Of a stretch of 21,395 nt of DNA, positions 18,623-21,395 are shown piece after piece. This DNA comes from a virus. Below the pieces are notes generated by a model. The model saw nothing but the letters and a program-made list of their open reading frames with translations. It made no database searches and was not told the origin of the DNA. A program made the position numbers and the translations under genes. The stretch spans positions 1 through 21,395 of IMG/VR virus record IMGVR_UViG_3300007542_000233. The stretch is one strand, 5' to 3'. Position 1 is the stretch's first letter; every line of letters begins with the position of its first letter.

Positions 18623-19005
18623 TGGCAAATGAACAAAATTTAAAACCTTTCAATAAAGGTTATGATTCAAGACGCGAGGGAAACGGTAGACCTAGAAAAT
18701 GGGTATCTACATTAACAGAACAAGGCTATAAAAATTCAGAGGTCACAGATACGATTCAGGCTTTGATGTCAATGACTATCGACGAACTTAAAGAAGTTTA
18801 TCAAGATAAAAATACAACCGTTTTAGAAAAGACCGTTGCGGGTGCGATAAGAAAGTCAATCGAAAAAGGTACTCTTTATTCATTAGATTTATTATGGAAT
18901 CGTGTATATGGTAAACCTAAAGAGCAAATGGATTTAAACGCTTCAGGTGGGTTTAAAATTGAAGTAACATATAAAGATGCAGACGATAGTAATCGAGCTT
19001 CCTAA
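18622..19005 (+). CDS. Terminase small subunit-like protein
   Basis: A 127-residue protein: N-terminal basic NKGYDSRREGNGRPRK (about 11-26), then helices with LTEQGYKNSEVTDTIQ (about 31-46), MTIDELKEV and VLEKTVAGAIRKSI (about 67-80), then KGTLYSLDLLWNRVYGKPKEQ. A gene directly upstream of TerL with this helix-rich form and a helix-turn-helix-like part is expected to be the small subunit, which recognises the packaging site. It overlaps TerL by 29 bases. Sequence recognition is by comparison with Bacteroidetes phage homologs I remember. Confidence 0.65.
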   Translation: MANEQNLKPFNKGYDSRREGNGRPRKWVSTLTEQGYKNSEVTDTIQALMSMTIDELKEVYQDKNTTVLEKTVAGAIRKSIEKGTLYSLDLLWNRVYGKPKEQMDLNASGGFKIEVTYKDADDSNRAS

Positions 19006-20146
19006 ACCACACGAGGGACAGCGTAACGTCTTAGAATCAAAGGCACGTTTTAGGGTTTTAATGTGTGGTCGTAGGTGGGGCAAATCTTTGATAAGTAAAC
19101 AGTACACAATTACGGAATCTTTAGCCGGTAATATTAATGCTTACATAACTCCGACCTATTCACTTGCAAAAGTTTTCTTTGACGAGATAGCAAAGTTAAT
19201 CCCGAACGAAGTAGCAACCGCAAACAAATCAGATTTGGTTTTTAAGTTCGTCACAGGTGGTGAGATTCGTTTCTTTACAGGTGAGCGATTAGATAACTTG
19301 CGTGGTTTAAAGTTTCACAATGTCATAATAGACGAAGCTTGTTATATACCACACTTAGAAGATGCATGGAACAACGCAATAAGACCAACGCTTACCGACT
19401 ATCAAGGTCGTGCCTTGTTCATATCCACCCCACGTGGTAAAGACTTTTTTTATCGACTTTATTTGCGTAATGGTGACAAAGACTTTCAATCCTTTAAATA
19501 CACGACATATGACAATCCATTTATTAACAATCAAGAAATTGACGATGCTCGTGCTTCGCTACCTTCGGCGGTCTTTGAGCAGGAATATCTCGCGAATCCG
19601 ATGGAGAATGCAGCTAATCCATTTGGTATGGACTTTATTCGTCAAAACATTACGCAAATATCCAGTGCCGTTCCCGTTTGCTACGGCATTGATTTGGCTA
19701 AGTCTTACGATTATACTGTCATTATCGGTCTTGATGGTAATGGTTGCGTATGTCATTACGACCGCTTTCAAGCTGACTGGAATACTACTAAGAATAAGAT
19801 AAAACAACTAGCAAACGTACCGAAAGTAATTGATGCCACCGGCGTTGGCGACCCAATAGTAGAGGACTTGCAACGTGACGATTACATGATTGAAGGGTTT
19901 AAATTTACTAGCACTTCTAAACAGCAATTAATTGAGGGATTAGTCATTGCTATTCAGCAAGGTTTGATTAAATACCCAGAGGGGTCAATCGTAGACGAAT
20001 TAAGTTTGTTTGAATATGTGTATAGCAAAACAGGCGTTAAGTATTCAGCACCTCAAGGGATGCACGATGACGCTGTATGTTCTTTAGCCTTAGCGTGGCG
20101 TGGTTTTATTCAAGGGCGTACACTTGGGCAATATGCTTTGATATGA
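18977..20146 (+). CDS. terL: Terminase large subunit (packaging ATPase and nuclease)
   Basis: A 389-residue protein. Walker A is CGRRWGKS (30-37), Walker B VIIDEA (116-121, Asp119-Glu120) and the coupling motif ISTPRGK (149-155). The nuclease domain has YGIDLAKSYDYT (236-247, Asp239), VIDATGVGDP (284-293, Asp286) and HDD (363-365), the three acidic sites of the RNase H-like TerL nuclease. It is a full-length single-chain protein, a little shorter than many TerL (about 450-550). It translocates DNA into the procapsid through the portal and cuts concatemers. Its start at 18977 lies inside the small-subunit gene. Other frames inside it are shadows. Confidence 0.95.
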   Translation: MQTIVIELPKPHEGQRNVLESKARFRVLMCGRRWGKSLISKQYTITESLAGNINAYITPTYSLAKVFFDEIAKLIPNEVATANKSDLVFKFVTGGEIRFFTGERLDNLRGLKFHNVIIDEACYIPHLEDAWNNAIRPTLTDYQGRALFISTPRGKDFFYRLYLRNGDKDFQSFKYTTYDNPFINNQEIDDARASLPSAVFEQEYLANPMENAANPFGMDFIRQNITQISSAVPVCYGIDLAKSYDYTVIIGLDGNGCVCHYDRFQADWNTTKNKIKQLANVPKVIDATGVGDPIVEDLQRDDYMIEGFKFTSTSKQQLIEGLVIAIQQGLIKYPEGSIVDELSLFEYVYSKTGVKYSAPQGMHDDAVCSLALAWRGFIQGRTLGQYALI

Positions 20147-20223
20147 AAAACACTTATTATTTGTGTAAAATAGTTATTTGCACCTATATTTTATGTAAAA
20201 CGCTTATTATTGTCACAAAGTAA
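20143..20223 (+). CDS. Possible 26-residue peptide after the terminase (weak)
   Basis: An ATGA overlap with the TerL stop opens a 26-codon frame with Ile, Leu and Cys residues, ending at TAA 20221 within the inverted repeat. The overlap type resembles real junctions here, but it is short, in repeat-rich AT-sequence, and may be only a chance frame. No family recognised. Confidence 0.2.
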   Translation: MKNTYYLCKIVICTYILCKTLIIVTK

Positions 20224-20239
20224 GCATGAAGTGTGACAA
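20210..20239 (+). repeat. Inverted repeat TTGTCACA/TGTGACAA
   Basis: A perfect 8-bp inverted repeat (20210-20217 and 20232-20239) with a 14-base spacer, arm centres 22 bases apart (two helical turns). It is followed by TTTTT then A7, so it might end TerL transcription weakly, or be an operator for a dimeric protein. The choice is open. Confidence 0.6.
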
Positions 20240-20353
20240 ATTTTTAAAAAAAGTTGTAAACAAAGCTTACAAAATTATTTTATGATGTCTTTTATTATAC
20301 ACATAAAGCGTATTATTGTGCATTATATCACACTTTATACAATAATTTGGCAT

Positions 20354-20361
20354 TATATTTG
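20354..20361 (+). promoter_or_regulatory. Possible -7 box TATATTTG (upstream)
   Basis: TAnnTTTG match in the repeat region, 66 bases before the next start codon. No good -33 element at 19-20 bases upstream. It could drive an upstream transcript or be chance in AT-rich DNA. Confidence 0.4.
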
Positions 20362-20378
20362 AAAACTGCCAAACTATT

Positions 20379-20423
20379 GTGCATTGTTTTGCACTTTTAT
20401 TGTGCAGATTTATTGTATATTTG
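20379..20423 (+). promoter_or_regulatory. Promoter for the 69-residue gene with overlapping GTGCA operators
   Basis: TATATTTG (20416-20423), four bases before the ATG at 20428. GTGCA-N6-TGCAC (20379-20394) and TGCAC-N7-GTGCA (20390-20406) form overlapping inverted repeats across the -33 region. This looks like a regulated promoter; the mRNA may be leaderless. Confidence 0.55.
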
Positions 20424-20427
20424 AATT

Positions 20428-20637
20428 ATGAAAGATAAAGCTTTTGAGTTTTTCGATTCAATGCTAGGCGGTCAGATAATAGCTATAAAGGAAATAGCTA
20501 AGAATGACCCCGAAGCATTTAAACAATATCTAAAGGACTATATCGATAGCGGTGGTTTGATTACCGTATCACCAGACTGGCGAAAGTTCAGAAAAGATAA
20601 TGACCCTAATGACTTTAAAGATTTGCCACAACGGTAA
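20428..20637 (+). CDS. Hypothetical protein (69 residues) between packaging and tail genes
   Basis: A 69-residue acidic helical protein (MKDKAFEFFDSMLGG, then KEIAKNDPEAFKQYLKDYID). It has its own promoter box close upstream and a terminator overlapping its stop codon, so it seems to be a single-gene transcription unit. The start is the ATG right after the box. No family recognised. A regulator of the tail operon or a small structural protein are both possible. Confidence 0.6.
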   Translation: MKDKAFEFFDSMLGGQIIAIKEIAKNDPEAFKQYLKDYIDSGGLITVSPDWRKFRKDNDPNDFKDLPQR

Positions 20638-20671: not shown

Positions 20672-21334
20672 ATGAAGAACTGGAATACAATTACAATAGA
20701 AGATTATCAGCTTATTTATGGTATCATAAACGATGCTAATATGAATGACTTTGAAAAAGAAGTTAAATTGATTTCAATAATTAATGAAATTTCAGAAGAC
20801 GAACTTGATAATATGCCTTTGGATAAATTCAAAGATTTAAAACCTAGTTTGGATTTCTTGCATAAAGGTACGATTGAAGGTAAACTTCAAAAGTACGTGA
20901 AAGTAAACGATACTAAATATGTAATGTCTTTAGATGCTTTTAAATTGACTTATGGTCAATATGTAGATATCACAACTTTCTTAGCTGGTGAAAACGCAAT
21001 GGTAGAAAACTTGCACTTAATCATGGCTTCATTGTCAATGCCTGTTAAAACTAACTGGTATGGCAAAGAAAGTGTAATGCCTTATGGTAGCTTAGAGCAT
21101 AGCAAGGTATCAAGCGATATGCTGAAGTCAAACTTTGCAAATTGCTATCATACAAGCGTTTTTTTTTTGAAACTTATAAGCGCCTTAATAAAGGTTATAG
21201 GGGTCTATTCGGTCAAGGAGGTTTTGAAGAGCAAACGAGTGACGAAGGAGAAATTGAGGTCGATTCTGAAACCTTTGAAAAACGGTGGGGGTGGGTTTAC
21301 AATGCCGAACTTATCGCAAAGTTTGAACGAGTAG
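20672..21334 (+). CDS. Tail assembly chaperone, zero-frame product (gpG-like)
   Basis: A 220-residue protein. The body (MKNWNTITIEDYQLIYG, VKLISIINEIS, PLDKFKDLKPSLDFL, GQYVDITTFLAG, NLHLIMASLSMP) resembles a common Bacteroidetes phage tail chaperone type. Residues about 163-166 are coded by ten Ts (21159-21168). After it, the zero-frame tail of 54 codons is basic and ends TAG. Chaperones of this sort, such as the G product in lambda, bind the tape measure during tail assembly. The second half can be real or an effect of the -1 frame; see the next entry. A weak TATATTTA sequence lies before the ATG. The tape measure gene is expected just after the window. Confidence 0.75.
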   Translation: MKNWNTITIEDYQLIYGIINDANMNDFEKEVKLISIINEISEDELDNMPLDKFKDLKPSLDFLHKGTIEGKLQKYVKVNDTKYVMSLDAFKLTYGQYVDITTFLAGENAMVENLHLIMASLSMPVKTNWYGKESVMPYGSLEHSKVSSDMLKSNFANCYHTSVFFLKLISALIKVIGVYSVKEVLKSKRVTKEKLRSILKPLKNGGGGFTMPNLSQSLNE

Positions 21335-21395
21335 CATTAAACGAAGTTTGGAAATTAAATATAATACAGGCGTTAAATTCATTAGCTTATTTAAA
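20672..21395 (+). CDS. Tail assembly chaperone -1 frameshift fusion (gpGT-like, 3' partial)
   Basis: The same start as the previous entry, with a -1 slip at the T run (heptamer T TTT TTG, 21163-21169). The -1 frame, after its last stop at 21100-21102, stays open to the window end (76 codons past the slip): ETYKRLNKGYRGLFGQGGF, then FEKRWGWVYN and LNIIQALNSLAYLK. These acidic and WGW/LNxLxYLK motifs belong to the downstream part of phage tail chaperones. Independent initiation (TTG 21142 is in frame) or a sequencing indel in the T run are the alternatives. Product is a minor fusion by analogy with lambda G-T. Confidence 0.7.
21159..21169 (+). promoter_or_regulatory. T10 slippery run, candidate -1 ribosomal frameshift site
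   Basis: Ten Ts (21159-21168) then G. In the zero frame the heptamer T TTT TTG (21163-21169) fits X XXY YYZ, allowing both tRNAs to re-pair with TTT in the -1 frame. No stimulating hairpin was worked out. Homopolymer indel is the main caveat. Confidence 0.7.

Follow-up and report, generated by a model that had tools for sequence, protein, structure and literature searches.

The present study analyzes a gene-poor gap in the window, by which we mean the whole stretch of 21,395 nucleotides of viral DNA that was examined, lying between the gene for the large terminase subunit and a small gene ahead of the tail genes. On balance, the comparison of related sequences makes it somewhat probable that this gap is an accessory operator/promoter module, i.e. 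a cis-regulatory element controlling the operon of the 69-aa gene and the tail genes in a Bacteroidota phage, and it is probably a regulatory switch as opposed to a replication origin or packaging site. Its repeated words look like docking sites for a putative DNA-binding protein, placed in a removable, gene-free stretch before the tail genes. The features of the region are as follows.

18977-20146, plus strand: terL, large terminase subunit (PHROG terminase large subunit, 2.2e-44; tblastn matches to phage terminases).
20147-20285, plus strand: A block, a non-coding AT-rich array of two direct repeats of about 30 bp (20151-20178 and 20181-20208) followed by GTAAG/CTTAC-type motifs.
20318-20333, plus strand: operator-like dyad 1, degenerate, GTGCA-TTATAT-CACAC; unchanged in L003 and one base different in L082 (GTGCATTATATGACAC).
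20346-20373, plus strand: inverted repeat TTTGGCA-N14-TGCCAAA around the upstream -7 box; identical arms and a variable loop in L003, L007 and L025.
20354-20361, plus strand: -7-like box P1, TATATTTG; not conserved (TATATTCG in L003, TATATTTA in L007).
20379-20394, plus strand: operator-like dyad 2, perfect arms, GTGCA-TTGTTT-TGCAC; arms and 61-nt spacing from dyad 1 the same in L003 and L082.
20398-20406, plus strand: third word TATTGTGCA, a half-site, 23 nt after dyad 2.
20416-20423, plus strand: -7 box P2, TATATTTG, 4 nt before the ATG at 20428; predicted to act as a leaderless promoter for the 69-aa gene and the genes downstream.
20428-20637, plus strand: 69-aa gene; place conserved between terL and the tail genes, with a weak winged-helix-like model.
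20672-21334, plus strand: 220-aa gene, first of the tail block; probable tail assembly chaperone, judged from where it lies and from a T9-T10 run that is conserved and has an overlapping frame.

The gap spans 281 bp (20147-20427, GC 24%), from the terL stop at 20146 on the left to the ATG of the 69-aa gene on the right, and, as noted originally, no gene-poor stretch of the window is larger: 204 bp lie outside any plus-strand open reading frame of at least 45 aa, compared with 127 bp for the runner-up. Nearly all genes around it are carried on the plus strand. No convincing gene was found within the gap, and an Rfam search of the window, gap included, matched no family. An ATG overlapping the terL stop (ATGA) starts a frame of 26 codons at 20144-20224 (MKNTYYLCKIVICTYILCKTLIIVTK); the frame is open in relatives but the ATG is absent in L003, L006, L008 and L010, and this candidate was rejected as a conserved gene. 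The family of the 69-aa protein has 21 invariant residues in an alignment of 20 sequences, and its AlphaFold2 model (pLDDT 70) has the order H-E-H-H-E-E, with winged-helix domains in many of the best PDB matches, none of them significant (best E 0.37). It is unlikely that this protein binds the words, as 91–97% identity is kept in relatives without them. The 220-aa gene had no match in Pfam or PHROG. Within it, a run of ten T is overlapped by another open frame, 100 codons long (21142-21395 in the window, continuing to window-equivalent 21444 in L002). A T9-T10 run is found at nucleotide 487 of the gene in 7/7 relatives checked, and the arrangement suggests programmed frameshifting in a tail assembly chaperone.

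The three exact word copies that had been claimed are borne out for TATTGTGCA, which has its only copies in the window at 20314, 20375 and 20398, while a longer word, TATTATTGTGCA, is present as a single copy at 20311. GTGCA occurs at 20318, 20379 and 20402 and TGCAC at 20179 and 20390, and two of the three TATTGTGCA words form the left arms of 16-bp dyads of the form GTGCA-N6-YRCAC, the third being a half-site. The inverted arms described originally therefore amount to one perfect dyad, the other being degenerate. Both -7 boxes described originally are present, at 20354 and 20416, although there are 22 copies of TAnnTTTG in the window and two in the gap are unremarkable by count. When the gap was shuffled 5000 times with dinucleotides preserved, 145 of the shuffles contained a 9-mer three times, 6 had seven 7-mers each present at least three times, and 57 reached five occurrences of GTGCA plus TGCAC; dyads of this length were not enriched compared with the shuffles (1234/5000). 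The clustering of words is thus of modest significance from the window alone and is solid with comparison. Readings of the words as dif/XerCD-like or sigma54-like sites were rejected after by-eye comparison, the fit to either consensus being poor.

The comparison drew on at least 80 IMG/VR relatives identified by terL. One, L002, has a gap identical to that of the window, and two others, L003 and L004, match it at 93% over 271 bp. The 19 differences all fall outside the two dyads, and past the matching stretch both relatives switch to a different cassette. Exact-pattern scans also detected the full pattern of two sites plus half-site in L082, part of a 62-kb contig (G025) whose proteins had no match at E 1e-4 to those of the 30.6-kb relative G001. 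L082 holds both the A block and the word block, which we term the T block, and its word starts are 61 and 23 nt apart exactly as in the window. In the three-way alignment of window, L003 and L082, 59/64 positions were identical inside the sites vs 23/54 outside (Fisher p 4e-9), the borders of the sites having been set with the repeats already known. The 36-nt spacer between the dyads was identical at 15/36 positions without any indel. Protein-binding-like sites are thus conserved at fixed spacing, as in an operator region, and of the three interpretations first offered (regulator-binding control region, replication origin with iterons, packaging site) it is the first that gains support, from sites and spacing shared by unrelated phages beside a conserved promoter-like box. 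The spacing of 23 nt from dyad 2 to the third word is found in L003, L082, L105 and L106, in the last two of which it was imposed by the search pattern. Only two independent carriers of the full T block were seen, the kin of the window and L082, which counts against the operator reading. In favor of it, a shorter sister motif, the related 26-mer ATTGTGCAATATATTACACATTTATT, is present in L105, L106 and L127 and also in the unrelated L126 and L128, always intergenic or at a gene border. The TTTGGCA/TGCCAAA inverted repeat is absent at the corresponding place in L082.

Neither the gap nor the L082 element had a BLASTN match among annotated phages and plasmids, and short-motif BLAST gave matches at chance level only (E 0.2 or worse), among them one to Pelagibacter phage HTVC168P that was set aside. 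A scan of bacterial and archaeal genomes gave four matches without the context of the window element, which were attributed to chance or other repeats, and a dyad pattern in L125 was dismissed as chance because it lies inside a coding gene. Two bacterial contigs, L112 (4218-4247 in reverse complement) and L113 (4751-4780), have in common a near-identical TTGTGCA-rich stretch, which is probably a different repeat element.

The main rival explanation, which we consider rather unlikely, sees in the segment a non-coding remnant or linker belonging to a cassette-exchange hotspot, conserved by recent exchange and recombination homology as opposed to being read by a protein. The junction is hypervariable: among 30 relatives the distance from terL to the 69-aa gene ranges from -4 to 1489 nt with varied small genes between, and small genes, tRNA genes and promoters are swapped among relatives, so that close relatives have variable content between conserved flanking genes as at a moron or cassette hotspot. 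Profile searches placed the A block after terL in L003, L006, L008, L009 and L010, in the last four without the word block and in L009 with one unit of about 29 bp lost, as well as before a tRNA gene in other contigs (L108, L110 and L111), and its 92% identity over 65 bp between the window and L082 is consistent with recent exchange. An A-block word in L102 lies inside a coding gene and was discounted as chance. Neutral linkers should diverge evenly, however, and in the T block identity across the spacer has dropped almost to background, with no indel, and the sites remain fixed. This rival explains the A block well but the T block less well. Two further patterns were seen at these junctions. 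A common cassette promoter, TTTATGACAATTCTATGACAATTGAATAGG...TATCTTTG, lies after terL upstream of unrelated small genes in L005, L007, L008, L009, L010 and L025. Just after terL in L011, L034 and L075 there are GC-richer paired elements 3′ of small cassette genes (such as TTCCAG..CTGGAA / TTCCTG..CAGGAA and CCACC..GGTGG). Their changes seem to be compensatory, and the cassette borders may thus hold a structured element. Rfam searches of these three loci returned only tRNAs.

Another explanation could be an RNA-level role for the inverted arms, which would end the terL transcript as intrinsic terminators or attenuators. Terminator-like calls fell at 20379-20394 and 20388-20408, T-rich tracts being present on the same side, a T-rich TTTAT-like tract lies 3′ of the dyads in the carriers, and the segment folds better than shuffles, if only mildly (z -2.1). 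We regard this as improbable: the stems are AT-rich and only about 5 bp, the fold of L082 is weaker (z -1.4), its dyad 1 is altered on one side only (CACAC to GACAC) with no compensation, and in L105 and L127 the motif is antisense to its genes. What is found is a T-rich tract in the absence of the stable hairpin with compensatory changes that characterizes intrinsic terminators.

Relatives lacking the segment bear most directly on the two remaining interpretations. Two near-complete genomes, G004 and G011, have a terL protein 98% identical to that of the window and the same gene order, but profile searches of the entire contigs detected no A block and no word triad, and a pattern search with one mismatch allowed found no dyad; in G011 the TTTGGCA/TGCCAAA repeat (16 bits) is all that remains. 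The segment is very likely to be truly missing, because contig-end mapping showed the relative contigs to be circular permutations of one genome of about 31 kb with only small pieces missing. In eight more distant relatives (L012, L016, L017, L018, L020, L021, L028 and L031, terL 73–77%) the terL stop is 6–12 nt from the 69-aa gene. Since relatives with the same order or a compact junction do without it, the segment is dispensable, and it therefore fits neither an origin nor a packaging site, readings that fail on the refuting condition set originally, absence of the words from close relatives with unchanged gene order.

A phage replication origin with iterons would be consistent with AT-rich DNA bearing short repeats, here of about 30 bp and 9 bp, and with the DnaA-C-like HTH protein and DnaB-like helicase encoded by the phage. 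Unlike iteron origins, the segment is not beside replication genes, which lie about 6–10 kb away, it is missing from near-complete relatives with the same replication genes, and cumulative GC skew, a check suggested originally, makes no turn at the gap. This reading is very improbable and already largely refuted. At least as improbable, and largely refuted as well, is a pac or cos site, for which the gap is suitably placed adjoining terL and a probable terS, but which is absent where the terL protein is 98–99% identical. The termini of contigs point the same way, the relative contigs of about 31 kb opening at many different points and none at the gap, contig ends being a weak proxy for virion ends.

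To return to the operator/promoter reading, what relatives do conserve is the downstream box, a predicted leaderless promoter. A TAnnTTTG-like box followed by exactly 4 nt and the ATG of the first gene is present in 17/17 displayed sequences, with and without the gap (20416-20430 in the window). Because the Flavobacterium psychrophilum sigmaA box TAnnTTTG sits at -12 to -5 (PMC9723704), transcription from P2 is predicted to start on the A of the ATG and give a leaderless mRNA. In compact relatives the -7 box is immediately 3′ of the terL stop, whereas in the window 269 bp separate the two, and this 269-bp segment fits exactly between the terL stop and the P2 box. The ancestral junction would thus have been compact, with terL stop, -7 box and, 4 nt on, the leaderless ATG, and the inserted segment would have replaced the end of terL upstream of P2 with operator-like sites in the order dyad 1, dyad 2 after 61 nt, and half-site after a further 23 nt. 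The half-site ends 9 nt before the P2 box. A putative dimeric protein may bind dyads 1 and 2, 61 nt being about six helical turns, and the half-site, and once bound it would repress, or less likely activate, expression of the 69-aa and tail genes from P2; repression is suggested because the place that RNA polymerase must occupy is overlapped by dyad 2 and the half-site. The binder may be host-encoded, as the two phages with the full triad have no detectable protein in common. Several observations count against an operator. A good -33 element is missing from P2, where about 24 nt separate the -7 box from the closest TTTG upstream, and the motif is reversed relative to the genes in L105 and lies between convergent genes in L126. 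In L003 and L004 the dyads are intact and the P2 box is lost, so that the dyads would need to act on a cassette promoter further down; where relatives carry a cassette gene, no P2-type box precedes the 69-aa gene and the promoter present is that of the cassette.

Morons are transcriptionally autonomous genes between conserved modules of tailed phages, and phage or host repressors may use tandem operators, 16-bp dyads with spaced copies. The junction resembles moron and accessory-gene insertion sites of tailed phages, where small genes that bring their own promoters come and go between conserved genes, but its inserted segment has no gene, just repeats and operator-like dyads. Likewise, two dyads and a half-site at fixed spacing upstream of a promoter are like tandem repressor operators, although we know of no operator with 61-nt spacing and the sequence GTGCA-N6-YRCAC. 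Both a moron/cassette hotspot junction and operators before a promoter are already known kinds; searches of annotated collections turned up neither this particular motif nor its sharing between unrelated phages. The box and its distance to a leaderless ATG match the F. psychrophilum position of the Bacteroidota sigmaA promoter (-7 box TAnnTTTG; PMC9723704), but P2 differs in having no convincing -33 element, with the dyads occupying the upstream region.

These results have several implications. First is that three open guesses are reduced to a single testable reading, namely which DNA-binding protein recognizes GTGCA-N6-YRCAC. Secondly, the findings suggest that phages exchange non-coding control segments, besides genes, at the terminase/tail junction, and they add a predicted leaderless promoter to the few regulatory sites known from uncultured Bacteroidota phages. 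Speculatively, the dyad, 61 nt, dyad, 23 nt and half-site might together be a portable gene-free module passed between unrelated Bacteroidota phages, through which a host-encoded regulator would time tail or accessory genes, with the sister motif TTGTGCAATATATTACACATTT elsewhere read by the same conserved host protein; we hold this wider scenario to be doubtful. If the binder is indeed a host regulator, the motif would allow host control of phage genes to be read from metagenomes.
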